Source: an uncultured SAR86 cluster bacterium (lineage in GTDB: Bacteria > Pseudomonadota > Gammaproteobacteria > Magnimaribacterales > D2472). Taken from it: a stretch of 43,839 nucleotides of DNA. The translations under genes and the position numbers were made by a program. This document shows, piece by piece, positions 31,508 through 43,839 of this stretch (position 1 is its first letter; the number at the start of each line of letters is the position of its first letter). The notes under the pieces are model-generated. The model was given only the letters and a program-made list of their open reading frames with translations, did no database searches and was not told where the DNA came from. The DNA is taken from contig CACDVW010000008.1 in the NCBI GenBank assembly GCA_902556355.1, forward strand, positions 1 through 43,839, in the 5' to 3' direction.

Positions 31508-31729
31508 ATGGATAATGCATGGAGAATGATAAAAGACCTAGTTAGTGAGTTAACTAGTGTTGTAATCGGACTTGCAGGGCTTGGTATTGTTGCTGCTATC
31601 GTATTTGGTGGCCCAGTATTTGGTCTTGATGTCATTGGCGGTGTTACTGAATTAGTTGAAATGCTTTCATCTAACGGTATCGTAGGATTGCTTGTATTAG
31701 CAATCTTATATAGCTTGGTTGCTAAATAA
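31508..31729 (+). CDS. Small two-helix membrane protein, unknown function (copy A)
   Basis: A 73-residue protein I cannot name. It has an amphipathic N-terminus (residues 1-16), a TM helix about 17-40 (VVIGLAGLGIVAAIVFGG), a short segment DVIGGVTELVEMLSSNG at 41-57, and a second TM helix about 58-71. A six-G stretch (AGGGGGG) six bases before the ATG gives an unusually strong ribosome site, and the gene has its own terminator, so high expression is plausible. It shares with the next gene the spacing FG...DVxxxVxx(L/I)(V/L)EMLxxN followed by a terminal TM helix, so the two are paralogues. Size and topology are those of small holins or membrane-associated peptides, but no family was recognised. 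Confidence 0.8.
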   Translation: MDNAWRMIKDLVSELTSVVIGLAGLGIVAAIVFGGPVFGLDVIGGVTELVEMLSSNGIVGLLVLAILYSLVAK

Positions 31730-31745
31730 GCCAAACTCTATATAT

Positions 31746-31775
31746 TAGGAAGGGTCTATGACCCTTCCTATTTTT
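31746..31775 (+). terminator. Very strong terminator hairpin between the two small genes
   Basis: TAGGAAGGGTC (31746-31756) and GACCCTTCCTA (31760-31770) form a perfect 11-base stem with a three-base loop followed by TTTTT (31771-31775). It lies 16 bases after the stop of copy A, and its T-run ends four bases before the ATG of copy B. Confidence 0.9.
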
Positions 31776-31779
31776 AAAA

Positions 31780-32010
31780 ATGAATTTAAATAACTCTTTA
31801 AAAAAAGCTACAGATTTTTTCAATAAAATAACAAAGTTATTAGTTCCATTGGTTGCAGTTACGCTTCTTCTTGGGATTATATTTGGACCAGACACACCAT
31901 TTGTTGGTGATGTTTATAAAAATGTAGCCAACATCCTCGAGATGCTTGGAGAGAACGCTCTGCTTGCATTGGTATCTATACTTATTATAGCTCTATACTT
32001 GAAGAAATAA
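31780..32010 (+). CDS. Small two-helix membrane protein, unknown function (copy B)
   Basis: A 76-residue protein, paralogue of the preceding gene: a basic, amphipathic start (NSLKKATDFFNKITK), a TM helix about 20-36 (LLVPLVAVTLLLGIIFG), the linker PDTPFVGDVYKNVANILEMLGEN, and a terminal TM helix (ALLALVSILIIALYLKK). The DV, V and EML positions coincide with copy A at identical spacing. Its ATG is only four bases after the T-run of the terminator hairpin and has no ribosome site; the only purine-rich stretch upstream (GGAAGGG) is buried in the hairpin's 5' arm. Expression would need read-through or a promoter in the hairpin region. It is convergent with the tRNA-Met gene, nine bases away. Confidence 0.7.
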   Translation: MNLNNSLKKATDFFNKITKLLVPLVAVTLLLGIIFGPDTPFVGDVYKNVANILEMLGENALLALVSILIIALYLKK

Positions 32011-40032: not shown

Positions 40033-40059
40033 GATTCTTTATTTCTTTGGGGGTAGAAA

Positions 40060-41148
40060 ATGTTAGATTTTACGATGAATGAAAGCTCATTAAAAATCAT
40101 TAAGAATAAAGAAGACCAATATAATCTTCCATATTTATGGATAAGAGACAACTGCTCATGTGATCAATGCAGAGTTAAAGAAACTCAAGAAAAAAGATTT
40201 ATGTTAAATGCAGTTTCAGTTGATTTAAAACCAAAAAAAGTTGTTATCGATAAAGATATAGTAAGTATTGAATGGCCTGATAATCACGAAACATCTATAA
40301 ATATTTCAGAACTTGAAAATTTGAATAAATCTAGAAAGCCTGAAAAGATTTTATGGACTAATGATTTTATTCCAGAATATTACGATTGGAATGAGTTTAT
40401 AGATAATAAAAATGTTGCAATTGATGCCTTTACTAATTTTATTACTAAGGGTGCGATATGCATTAAAAATGCACCATCTACTCCAAACTCTTTAGAAAAT
40501 CTTGCGCCTAGACTTGGCCCAATCAGAGAAGTTTTATTTGAAAGAATTCACAATGTTTCTATAGACGGACATGTATATAATATAGCCCATACTTCACTTG
40601 AGGTTCCGCCTCATAACGACTTTGCAAGTTATACATGGCCACCAAGTGTTCAAGCTCTTCATATGCTAGTTAATGATTGTAAGGGTGGAGAATCAATGAT
40701 TGTTGATGGTTATTCAGTCTTAAACGATTTAAAAGAAGAGCACCCACATTTTTTTGAAATCTTATGTAATTTCCCCGTGCCTTTTAGAGAATTCGATGAA
40801 GACAATGAAACTTATGCTATTGAACCAATCATTAGATTAAATTCAAAGAAAGAAATAGTTGGTTTTAGATACTCAAATCAATTAATGCAAATGATAAATC
40901 CTAACTTAGAAAATGTAGATTTATTCTACAAGGCTTATCATGAATTATGTTCAAGAGTGAATAGTGACAAATACAAATCAAAATTTAGATTAGAGTCTGG
41001 TCATATACTTTTAGTTTCTGCTCACAGAGTCCTTCATGGTAGACAAGAATTTAAACCAAATGGAAAGCGTCACCTTCAAGACGCTTACTATGAAATGGAT
41101 AACATTGAGAATAATCTAGTCTTGTATCAGGCTCAAAGGAGTAATTAG
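40060..41148 (+). CDS. Fe(II)/2-oxoglutarate oxygenase, gamma-butyrobetaine hydroxylase-like (TmpA-like)
   Basis: Two domains: an N-terminal zinc-binding GBBH_N/DUF971 domain with Cys32, Cys34 and Cys37 (RDNCSCDQCRV) and His76 (WPDNHET), then a TauD/TfdA oxygenase domain with facial-triad His185 and Asp187 (VPPHNDFAS) and His326 (RVLHGR), and 2-oxoglutarate Arg337 (KRHLQDAYYEMD). Length of 362 residues is typical of the family, which includes gamma-butyrobetaine and trimethyllysine hydroxylases and TmpA, the first enzyme of 2-(trimethylammonio)ethylphosphonate breakdown. The HD-domain gene directly downstream favours a TmpA-type role; carnitine synthesis is the alternative. GGGGG lies six bases before the ATG, a stronger ribosome site than most genes here. 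The substrate is inference. Confidence 0.85.
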   Translation: MLDFTMNESSLKIIKNKEDQYNLPYLWIRDNCSCDQCRVKETQEKRFMLNAVSVDLKPKKVVIDKDIVSIEWPDNHETSINISELENLNKSRKPEKILWTNDFIPEYYDWNEFIDNKNVAIDAFTNFITKGAICIKNAPSTPNSLENLAPRLGPIREVLFERIHNVSIDGHVYNIAHTSLEVPPHNDFASYTWPPSVQALHMLVNDCKGGESMIVDGYSVLNDLKEEHPHFFEILCNFPVPFREFDEDNETYAIEPIIRLNSKKEIVGFRYSNQLMQMINPNLENVDLFYKAYHELCSRVNSDKYKSKFRLESGHILLVSAHRVLHGRQEFKPNGKRHLQDAYYEMDNIENNLVLYQAQRSN

Positions 41149-41149
41149 A

Positions 41150-41707
41150 TTGACTAAAAAAGTTGAGTTCACATCTATGGACAAAGGAACAAGGAATGAT
41201 TATGACCTTATATCAATCCATGATTCGGAAAATGAAAGAAACTTAGTTTCTAGAGTTATTGAATGGTTGAAGATGATGGATGGAGAGTCGCCCTATAAAA
41301 TTAGCAGATTACAACATTGTCTCCAAACGGCTACAAGAGCAGAAGAAGACGGAGCTGATACCGAGACTATTGTTTGCGCTCTTCTTCATGATATTGGTGA
41401 TGTAATTTCACCTTCTAATCATTCTCAGGTTTCTGCAGCACTCCTAAGACCTTATATAAGCGAAAAAAATTATTGGATAGTTCTTAATCATGGTTTGTTC
41501 CAAGGTTATTACTGGATGCATCATTATGACAAGGATAGAAATTTAAGAGATCAATATAAGGACCATCCATATTATCAAGACTGTATTGATTTTTGTGCTA
41601 ACTGGGATCAGAAATCTTTTGATCCAGAGTATAAAACTAAATCCTTAGAATACTTTGTACCTATGATTGAAAAGATTTTTTCAAAAGAACCAAAGTCGTT
41701 TGTATAA
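41150..41707 (+). CDS. HD-domain protein with diiron oxygenase ligand set (TmpB/PhnZ-like)
   Basis: A 185-residue HD-fold protein with the full six-ligand set of mixed-valent diiron oxygenases (PhnZ, TmpB, MIOX): His56 (SRLQHCLQTATRA), His80 and Asp81 (CALLHDIGD), His91 (PSNHSQV), His114 (VLNHGLFQGYYW) and Asp153 (NWDQKSFDP). Simple HD phosphohydrolases have only His, His-Asp and Asp. TmpB and PhnZ cleave the C-P bond of 1-hydroxyphosphonates made by a partner Fe/2-oxoglutarate enzyme, and the partner lies one base upstream. The Y-x-x-E substrate lid of PhnZ is not clearly conserved (MDGE at 43-46, Tyr49), so the substrate may differ. The start is TTG, supported by AAGGAG eight bases upstream; no ATG exists nearby in frame before the conserved part. 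Confidence 0.8.
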   Translation: MTKKVEFTSMDKGTRNDYDLISIHDSENERNLVSRVIEWLKMMDGESPYKISRLQHCLQTATRAEEDGADTETIVCALLHDIGDVISPSNHSQVSAALLRPYISEKNYWIVLNHGLFQGYYWMHHYDKDRNLRDQYKDHPYYQDCIDFCANWDQKSFDPEYKTKSLEYFVPMIEKIFSKEPKSFV

Positions 41708-41710
41708 AAA

Positions 41711-43177
41711 TTAAGTACCACAGAAAGTTTTATATCTCACTGAAGAACTTTTAACTGGCTTTTCATATTCATAAAATTCTTTAATTTCGTCGTAAGGATT
41801 TTTTAAAATATCATGAAGTTTTAAAAAAGGTTTCATATTATTATCAAAAACTGCTGCCTTTAAAGCTTCCTCAACTTTATGATTTCTTGGAATATATAAT
41901 GGATTGACTGCATTCATTGAAGATGCAATCTTTTCATCAGATATGCTTTCTTGCGAGACTCTTTCTTTCCATAATGTCATCCAGTTATCGAATGCTATAT
42001 CATTTTTAAAAAGATTTTTAATACTTTTTATGTCACCAACAAGTGCTTTTGAGAGATATCTAAAGCATAAAGTGAAGTCAACCTTATTAGTTTTCATAAG
42101 ATTTAATAGCTGAGATATTAAATTAATATCATCTTGATCTTCTTTTGATAAACCAATTTTAGACCTCATAGAAGAAAGCCAATAGTTTGTATATACAGGC
42201 TTAATTAATTGAAGCACCTCTGTTAATAGTTTTATTGCTTCATTCTGATCTTTGTGAACTAGAGGAATTAATGTTTCGGCGAGCCTGGTTAAATTCCAAG
42301 TTAAGATTTTTGGTTGGTTTTTATATGAGTATCTTCCATTTTTATCTATTGAACTAAAAACAGTAGAGGGATCATAGACATCCATGAATGCACAAGGACC
42401 ATAATCAATAGTTTCTCCTGAAATAGTCATATTGTCAGTGTTCATGACCCCATGAATAAATCCAATACTCATCCAATTTGCAACTAATGATGCTTGCTCA
42501 TTACAAACGGCTGCAAAAAAAGCAAGATAGGGATTTTCTACATCTGCGGTTTCAGGAAAGTGCCTATTTATTGAGTAATCAGCTAAGTCTTTAATTAAAG
42601 ACTGATTTTTAGATTTGTATGCATATTCAAAACTTCCAACTCTAATATGACTTGAAGCAACTCTTGTCATTACACCTCCTGGTAATTCTTGTTCTCTTTG
42701 AACATTTTCACCAGTTTTAATTGCAGCAAGGGCTCGTGTTGTTGGAATACCTAAGACATTCATACTTTCACTAATTAGATACTCTCTTAGCACTGGTCCC
42801 AATGCAGATTTACCATCTCCTCTTCTTGAAAATGGTGTTGGCCCAGATCCTTTTAATTGAATATCTCTTAGATCACCATTTGTATTTACAGATTCACCAA
42901 GCAATAAAGCTCTTCCATCACCAAGTGCAAGATTGAAGTGACCAAACTGGTGACCAGAATATGCTTGAGCTATGGGCTGAGAGTCTTTTAAAACTTCTCT
43001 TCCTGAAAATATCTCGGTACATTTATTTTGATTCTTTGCCAAAGAGCTTAAATTTAATTCTTCTGCAAGTGAATTATTGAATATAAGTAATTCCGGCGCT
43101 GGTGCTGGAGTTGCATAACTCTTTTCGCACATTTCACTTAAACTCTCTAAAAAGGTATTTTGTAGATCAAGTTTCAA
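41711..43177 (-). CDS. selO: Protein adenylyltransferase SelO (YdiU)
   Basis: Pseudokinase-fold enzyme that transfers AMP to Ser, Thr or Tyr of target proteins; linked to oxidative stress. Signatures: AQAYSGHQFGHFNLALGDGRALLLGE in outline, the nucleotide site QLKGSGPTPFSRRGDGKSALG, SSHIRVGSFEY, HGVMNTDNMTISGETIDYGPCAFMD (metal and catalytic-like residues) and IPRNHKVEEAL. The C-terminal end is YKTFCGT, a Cys near the end where eukaryotic SelO carries selenocysteine. Length of 488 residues is typical. It is convergent with the HD gene (three bases between) and starts six bases after the nitroreductase stop, likely one operon. Confidence 0.96.
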   Translation of the reverse strand: MKLDLQNTFLESLSEMCEKSYATPAPAPELLIFNNSLAEELNLSSLAKNQNKCTEIFSGREVLKDSQPIAQAYSGHQFGHFNLALGDGRALLLGESVNTNGDLRDIQLKGSGPTPFSRRGDGKSALGPVLREYLISESMNVLGIPTTRALAAIKTGENVQREQELPGGVMTRVASSHIRVGSFEYAYKSKNQSLIKDLADYSINRHFPETADVENPYLAFFAAVCNEQASLVANWMSIGFIHGVMNTDNMTISGETIDYGPCAFMDVYDPSTVFSSIDKNGRYSYKNQPKILTWNLTRLAETLIPLVHKDQNEAIKLLTEVLQLIKPVYTNYWLSSMRSKIGLSKEDQDDINLISQLLNLMKTNKVDFTLCFRYLSKALVGDIKSIKNLFKNDIAFDNWMTLWKERVSQESISDEKIASSMNAVNPLYIPRNHKVEEALKAAVFDNNMKPFLKLHDILKNPYDEIKEFYEYEKPVKSSSVRYKTFCGT

Positions 43178-43183
43178 ATTACT

Positions 43184-43839
43184 TCACTCAATGAAAGTTA
43201 CAAACTTTTCTATAGATTCTCTTGATGTTCTATAGTTATTTATTGGATGCTCTTTATTTGGATAGCCTAATGCAATCCCACACCAAACAACTTCGTTATC
43301 TGGAATGTTAAGAATATCTTTAACAGTTTCTGGATATATTGACCAAGATTCTTGAAGGCAAGTTCCCATGCCACGCTCAACAGTACTTAAACAGATATTT
43401 TGAATAAACATTCCAACATGTCCCCATCCATTCTCAGCAAATGCTTTATCAATAGTGACTATCATCCCAACCGGAGCACCAAAAAACTTAAAATTCTCTC
43501 TTATTTGCGAAAGTCTCGATTCAATATCATCTTGTTTAATAGACAAAGCTGTATACATATCCTTGGCACATTCCGATCTTCTTTTTTTATACTCTTCGTC
43601 CAATGGGTTGGGGTATATCTCGTATTCTATTTTTTCTTGTACGCCATTGTCATAGTTAGCAAGAGCTTTTTCAACAAGCTTTTCTTTTGCATTATTAGTT
43701 ACAACATAAATTTTCCATGGCTGGATATTACCCCCAGAAGGAGCGCAGCTAGAAATTTCTAGTATCTCTTTGATAGTTTCAATATCTATTTCTTCATTAG
43801 TGAAGCTTCTAACAGAATATCGTGATTTTATAAGTTCTT
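43184..43839 (-). CDS. Nitroreductase family protein, 5' end cut by the window
   Basis: FMN-dependent oxidoreductase of the nitroreductase superfamily. Reading in from the right edge without interruption gives 217 residues: RYSVRSFTNEEI (FMN phosphate Arg region), EISSCAPSGGNIQPWKIYVV, GHVGMFIQNICLSTVERGMGTCLQ and IALGYPNKEHPINNYRTSRE. Only a few N-terminal residues should be missing, beyond base 43839. The TTG at 43603 is an internal Leu codon, not a start. It is co-directional with selO six bases downstream; a redox-stress operon is a reasonable guess. The substrate cannot be told. Confidence 0.92.
   Translation of the reverse strand, partial: ELIKSRYSVRSFTNEEIDIETIKEILEISSCAPSGGNIQPWKIYVVTNNAKEKLVEKALANYDNGVQEKIEYEIYPNPLDEEYKKRRSECAKDMYTALSIKQDDIESRLSQIRENFKFFGAPVGMIVTIDKAFAENGWGHVGMFIQNICLSTVERGMGTCLQESWSIYPETVKDILNIPDNEVVWCGIALGYPNKEHPINNYRTSRESIEKFVTFIE

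Follow-up and report, generated by a model that had tools for sequence, protein, structure and literature searches.

The window, by which we mean the whole stretch of DNA analysed (43,839 nucleotides), comes from an uncultured bacterium of the SAR86 cluster whose source genome is 75% complete (1.07 Mb in 47 contigs). Near its end lie two genes on the plus strand. The first, at 40060-41148, starts with ATG and encodes a protein of 362 amino acids with GBBH-like_N and TauD domains, that is, a GBBH-like Fe(II)/2OG oxygenase. The second, at 41150-41707, starts with TTG and encodes an HD-domain protein of 185 amino acids, a predicted diiron oxygenase. A single base separates the stop codon of the oxygenase gene from the start of the HD gene. 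Reading by eye, we noted a Shine-Dalgarno-like GGGGG on the plus strand before the oxygenase gene (40049-40053); a second such sequence on the same strand, AAGGAG (41136-41141), also read by eye, precedes the HD gene and overlaps the last codons of the oxygenase. The original prediction had described an oxygenase/HD pair with a gap of one base and a full set of metal ligands in each protein, and both the open reading frames and the residue check bear this out.

The pair is followed at 41711-43837 by minus-strand genes that we take to be SelO/YdiU pseudokinase-like and nitroreductase-like. Further upstream in the window, two neighbouring small membrane-like proteins (73 and 76 amino acids), alike in layout, are encoded at 31508-32010.

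Residues and predicted fold of the HD protein

The HD protein matches the Pfam HD family at 5.3e-07. The residues H56, H80, D81, H91, H114 and D153 are all present, and these six diiron-type ligands are invariant across the 90 aligned rows of the family. Its structural model (pLDDT 96.6) gave Z scores of 16.6 with PhnZ, 15.8 with TmpB and 10.9 with MIOX, the best other chain listed reaching 7.8; Foldseek likewise placed PhnZ, TmpB and MIOX above the other listed chains. The match to MIOX is less safe than those to PhnZ and TmpB, since helical folds can reach middling Z scores by chance. The modelled fold is nearest to PhnZ, TmpB and MIOX, the structural class of HD-domain diiron oxygenases. 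The diiron-oxygenase fold that had been proposed for this protein is supported by a model that finds these three enzymes first.

Within that class the protein stands apart from the curated families. It scored 48.7 against the cut-off of 214.6 for TIGR03276, 39.3 against 300 for NF049941 (TmpB) and 29.9 against 300 for NF052439; no NCBIfam model scored above its cut-off for this HD branch, and no solved structure was closer than PhnZ. When 36 members of the HD family were scanned against NCBIfam, the commonest matches were to the same phosphonate models. In a quick tree, which carries a long-branch warning, the 14 TmpB/PhnZ-like rows separated from the 90 rows of the family with an SH-aLRT of 99. 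TmpB and PhnZ carry a YxxE lid motif (PMC8177086); this motif was absent from all 90 rows of the HD family. The position of its Glu is occupied by Tyr (62 rows) or Phe (28 rows), and the window protein has E46..Y49 and not Y..E. The earlier suspicion that the lid is poorly kept is borne out by the Tyr or Phe that stands for Glu in every one of the 90 rows.

Residues and phylogeny of the oxygenase

The oxygenase matches the Pfam families TauD (3.9e-33) and GBBH-like_N (2.8e-09). It has the iron ligands H185, D187 and H326, with R337 as the 2OG arginine, together with Cys32, Cys34, Cys37 and His76, which we take to be the zinc-site pattern seen in human GBBH; the zinc and iron ligands named in the original prediction were thus all recovered by the residue check. 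Its top NCBIfam match was TIGR02409 (GBBH), with 230.6 bits, under the cut-off of 414.75 bits, and it scored 213.5 against a cut-off of 400 with the TmpA model NF049936. The structural model (pLDDT 84.9) is closest to human BBOX and TmpA; its pLDDT drops below 50 in two segments that include cage residues (160-167 and 170-174). In the tree of oxygenases, a branch with support of 100/100 places the window protein on a side of 15 rows, and 11 TmpA and 5 GBBH-like rows are among the 24 on the other side. No protein exceeded the TIGR02409 cut-off in any of 143 genomes, so that the tree holds no certified GBBH.

With the cage numbered as in hBBOX, the window protein has F160, H164, H177 and Y343 at the cage positions, where the 11 TmpA rows all have Tyr, Phe, Tyr or Phe, and Tyr. 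Both cage histidines occur in 12 of the 15 proteins that make up the clade of the window oxygenase; the exceptions are two actinobacterial proteins (L113 and L114), with Phe at the one position and Phe or Tyr at the other, and one from SAR324 (L119), with His and Ser. The cage argument is therefore not uniform across the clade, as L113 and L114 keep aromatics and L119 has Ser. TmpA binds the phosphonate through N187, N287 and R288 and BBOX uses N191 and N293 (PMC9296572); the acid-group role of N191 and N293 in BBOX and the roles of Arg288 and the cage are taken from PMC9296572 and PMC4736438. N174 and N273 of the window protein are the kept counterparts of the BBOX acid-binding residues N191 and N293. 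Gln274 replaces Arg288 of TmpA, the arginine being present in 11 of 11 TmpA rows, two of which lack the second Asn.

Recurrence of the pair and exchange of hydroxylase partners

The closest match to the HD protein among the best 80 of at least 558 relatives, L103 from the SAR86 cluster, is 98% identical. Across 203 genomes of the window's order, the HD protein was present in 138 and the oxygenase in 50. The oxygenase lay directly upstream of the HD gene in 19 of the 19 order genomes with an HD protein 79-99% identical to that of the window, two of these oxygenase copies being incomplete (cut by a contig end in G132, N-terminally truncated in G080). Oxygenases at least 69% identical were found in 21 genomes, of which 19 are paired, and in the other two (G084 and G085) roughly 10 kb separate the gene from a more divergent HD gene. 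No adjoining HD gene was listed for the 29 lower-identity oxygenases (51-58%, one 30%), of which the G152 copy runs off its contig; an HD gene was found elsewhere in 20 of these 29 genomes, no enrichment over the base rate of 138 in 203. The upstream neighbours of the pair are the same as in the window in G144 and different in G073 and G128. Comparisons with relatives gave dN/dS values of 0.03-0.11 in five cases, two of them saturated (dS >2), and of about 0.24 in two further near-identical cases, which are little informative. We conclude that the pair is not due to chance, because dN/dS is low and the oxygenase lies upstream in 19 of 19 order genomes.

We also searched across species for HD relatives and kept the best 80 of at least 558 as named loci; three of these (L103, L104 and L105) match contigs of G134, G073 and G132 in length, so that they add nothing independent to the survey of the order. 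VIA rows may include other HD folds. Within these best 80 of at least 558 loci, 16 had a same-strand gene for a 2OG-type hydroxylase within 250 bp of the HD gene: 14 partners are GBBH-like, one is PhyH (L117) and one is Asp_Arg_Hydrox (L108). The other 64 of the best 80 (of at least 558) have no adjoining 2OG-type gene, so the HD protein may have an independent role. Of 23 2OG-type open reading frames in the 1.36 Mb covered by the best 80 of at least 558 loci, 18 adjoin the HD gene, a count biased towards adjacent genes since the profiles were seeded with genes adjoining HD; one of the five non-adjacent frames is a fragment of a broken gene beside HD in L118. Partners drawn from three families are what one would expect if a common cleaving enzyme worked with interchangeable hydroxylases.

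At L118 (1719-4102) and at L119 (723-3233; SAR324 cluster), HD is preceded by a GBBH-like gene and followed by a PhyH-like one, and each such row of three genes could represent a longer oxidative unit. HD proteins of the wider family are paired with PhyH-type oxygenases at L037 5772-7270, L038 6416-7924 and L117 10001-11390, the PhyH label being given by Pfam for L037 and L117 and by BLAST similarity only for L038. The partner type of these pairs is nearer to that of PhnY*-PhnZ than is the case in the window, and one genome of the order carries such a PhyH and HD pair (L037). At L108 (8983-10558) the HD gene overlaps the Asp_Arg_Hydrox gene, and BKACE-, crotonase- and acyl-CoA dehydrogenase-like genes lie 5-9 kb upstream. 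In HTCC2143 (L109), the HD protein is 66% identical and its gene has an AstE_AspA-type gene upstream, with no adjoining 2OG-type gene by the profiles used. A single oxygenase scan of viral contigs gave six pattern matches, none of which was confirmed.

Genomic context in relatives

In several relatives the genes around the pair belong to methylated-amine and C1 metabolism. In G368, the pair stands beside MTTB, B12-binding, Pterin_bind, MTHFR, RACo and DAO/GCV_T genes, with a BCCT transporter about 13 kb away. In the SAR86 genus g5, an FAO_M (FAD/GcvT-type) gene occurs within 10 kb of the pair in six of the seven pair-bearing genomes, and four pair-bearing genomes of this genus also have a BCCT gene within 10 kb. 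L104 encodes two DmdA-like proteins, one of them at the DmdA cut-off (410.5 against 410), as well as class III alcohol dehydrogenase, NAD formate dehydrogenase and formate-THF ligase. L099, which has an oxygenase of the same clade without an adjoining HD gene, also has a DmdA-like gene and genes that resemble the formate and alcohol dehydrogenases of L104. MttB-like genes were found in 3 of the best 80 of at least 558 loci and in 4 of 20 class loci; at L110, L112, L123 and L130 the HD gene lies in methyl-transfer neighbourhoods with no GBBH-like match. In the window and its genus, the pair is not near an FAO_M gene, which lies on other contigs or, in G144, 415 kb off; the methylated-amine context is therefore borrowed from relatives.

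Other surroundings of HD genes were also observed. In SAR11, solo HD genes directly follow a purF-like gene (L137 1579-3618 and L143 8516-10555; label by inspection), and a purF-like cluster occurs in 25 of the best 80 of at least 558 HD loci. In SAR86, the solo HD gene of L047 (2915-6994) is followed by genes for a DUF3089 protein, an alpha/beta hydrolase and an MFS_2 transporter, and L048 and L100 have genes of similar size to these. An alphaproteobacterial HD gene (L126 2966-12988) is found among acyl-CoA dehydrogenase-, CoA ligase-, aminotransferase- and BKACE-like genes, together with a thioesterase that resembles the C-terminal part of carnitine 3-dehydrogenase.

Proposed function and alternatives

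We consider it fairly probable that the pair forms a coupled oxidative pathway, in which a compound of the type N-CH2-CH2-X is hydroxylated and then cut to an N-CH2-carboxylate for methylated-amine and C1 catabolism. The GBBH-like Fe/2OG oxygenase would hydroxylate a small zwitterion of this type; the HD diiron oxygenase would cut the C(OH)-X bond with O2, releasing the N-CH2-carboxylate (glycine or a methylated glycine), and this product would feed methylated-amine and C1 catabolism. TmpA and BBOX both hydroxylate the carbon adjoining the N-CH2 group, and because hydroxylation would fall next to N-CH2, cleavage of C(OH)-X would yield an N-CH2-carboxylate whatever X is. The principle of hydroxylating and then cleaving is well supported; the order of the two reactions we infer.

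Since the asparagine pair is kept and the arginine is lost, a carboxylate-bearing X is favoured, and we judge X more likely to be carbon (carboxylate or CH2-carboxylate) than phosphonate. The contexts of the relatives favour a glycine-type product, and the altered cage, read from sequence, would leave the amine (or sulfonium) end of the substrate open. A possible form of the chemistry, which we put forward tentatively, is a carbon counterpart of TmpA-TmpB: the oxygenase would hydroxylate a betaine-type or sulfonium acid, candidates being beta-alanine betaine, gamma-butyrobetaine/carnitine and DMSP, and C-C cleavage by the HD protein would then yield glycine betaine, glycine or an analogue.

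The original prediction had likened the pair to TmpA-TmpB, which turn TMAEP into glycine betaine and phosphate, and had allowed for a related substrate. Much of it stands: the relation to TmpA, TmpB and PhnZ is supported by shared superfamilies and by the fold matches, and so are the two-step logic, the likelihood that annotation pipelines would mislabel both genes, and the room left for a different substrate. The use of TMAEP itself is not supported. A true TmpA-TmpB would explain the same two superfamilies in the same order, the methylated-amine genes near some relatives and the structural matches that include TmpA and TmpB, but we regard it as very unlikely, given scores far under the cut-offs (213.5 of 400 for TmpA, 39.3 of 300 for TmpB), trees that place both proteins outside the TmpA and TmpB clades, the Gln in place of Arg288, the changed cage, the absent YxxE and the lack of PhnD; as the best reading it was rejected on scores, clades, residues and gene content. 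A genuine TmpA-TmpB yardstick exists, since TmpA exceeded its cut-off in 13 of 299 genomes and a TIGR03276-type HD gene lay directly beside tmpA in all 11 checked. A search of 20 oxygenase-bearing SAR86 genomes (HD adjoining in 18; 59-93% complete) gave no PhnD. This is a weak argument, since these genomes are incomplete and the TmpA genomes are several times larger and carry PhnD far from tmpA (a match in 13 of 13, 11 over the cut-off, none within 100 kb). That some other phosphonate, such as a 2-AEP derivative, is cleaved to phosphate is unlikely too: PhnZ and TmpB cleave C-P bonds (PMC8177086) and the HD fold is closest to PhnZ, but the phosphonate arginine is missing, the scanned neighbours in L104 are C1 and methyl genes, and the 20 SAR86 genomes have no PhnD-type binding protein, the one type of phosphonate transport protein that the search covered.

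The HD protein could also act independently, with the same function as the solo HD proteins of SAR11 and SAR86, so that co-transcription would reflect one substrate range and not sequential chemistry. The greater frequency of HD than of the oxygenase in the order (138 against 50 of 203 genomes), the 29 lower-identity oxygenases without adjoining HD, with HD elsewhere at the base rate (20 of 29), and the methyl-transfer neighbourhoods of L110, L112, L123 and L130 without a GBBH-like match all speak for it; the repeated direct adjacency to 2OG-type hydroxylases of three families and the precedents of PhnY/PhnZ and TmpA/TmpB speak against it, and we hold it to be rather unlikely. An ordinary carnitine-forming GBBH beside an unrelated HD phosphohydrolase is very unlikely. 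The top NCBIfam match to TIGR02409 and the kept acid-binding Asn pair would fit such an enzyme, but not the 230.6 of 414.75 bits, the two cage histidines, the position outside the clade of the available GBBH-like rows or an HD fold nearest to the oxygenase class. The outcome that would have counted against the original prediction, an oxygenase that clusters with carnitine-forming GBBH in a carrier of carnitine genes, was not seen: the score is below the cut-off and BKACE is found in 0 of 20 SAR86 genomes, the tree offering GBBH-like rows below the cut-off for comparison.

Carnitine formation with the known downstream route was likewise tried and rejected, BKACE being absent from these 20 SAR86 genomes and from G213; in G368 it is present, on another contig. 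A link to carnitine or gamma-butyrobetaine keeps some standing because BKACE-like (7), CaiD-like (6) and CaiA-like (7) genes flank other HD loci among the best 80 of at least 558, the CaiD-like match in L108 being under the cut-off (325 against 500 bits).

Taken as a coupled oxidative pathway, the pair would belong to an uncharacterised branch of HD oxygenases with exchangeable 2OG partners, which probably cuts a betaine-like compound, the substrate we infer, to (methyl)glycine. Three HD-domain oxygenases were known to a 2020 review, namely MIOX, PhnZ and TmpB (PMC8177086), and a 2023 review adds a methylphosphonate-type PhnY/PhnZ and a fused fungal PhoF (PMC10574752). In the open-licence PMC literature, judged by title or the start of the abstract, we found no description of the present branch. 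SAR86 has been noted, in one paper, to encode putative taurine dioxygenases that may have a different function (PMC11582366).

HD relatives are common in SAR11, which accounts for 26 of the best 80 of at least 558 HD loci, and this may bear on the disputed counts of phnZ in the ocean. For surface waters, the 2023 review cites one study with phnZ in about 20% of the expected bacteria and another with the 2-AEP type below 0.01% and other types below 1% (PMC10574752); in one survey, Pelagibacterales made up 45% of marine phnZ sequences after a residue filter (PMC9381506). If the carbon-counterpart chemistry is true, there would be C-C cleavage in a PhnZ-like HD branch of which SAR11, SAR86 and others carry related forms; some of the marine genes counted as phnZ and assigned to phosphonate degradation might then belong to the catabolism of methylated compounds.

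Comparison with known systems

The pair would work like TmpA-TmpB and PhnY-PhnZ and is a member of neither. With TmpA-TmpB of Leisingera caerulea (TMAEP to glycine betaine and phosphate) it shares the superfamilies, the gene order, the full ligand sets and the fold; it differs in scoring under the cut-offs, in its separate clades, in Gln for Arg288, in the F/H/H cage and in having no YxxE. PhnY*-PhnZ (2-AEP to glycine and phosphate) follows the same logic of a 2OG hydroxylase and an HD oxygenase, PhnZ is the top structural match, and some HD relatives pair with PhyH oxygenases as in that system; in contrast, the partner in the window is GBBH-like and not PhyH, YxxE is absent and none of 20 oxygenase-bearing SAR86 genomes gave a PhnD. 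BBOX differs from the window oxygenase at two cage positions, where the latter has His, and in the score (230.6 against 414.75 bits), and shares with it the fold, the Fe/2OG residues and both acid-binding Asn. MIOX, only 14% identical to the window HD protein in the structural alignment and with no sequence match at E 1, has the same HD ligand pattern (PMC8177086) and fold (Z 10.9), and provides a precedent for C-C cleavage.
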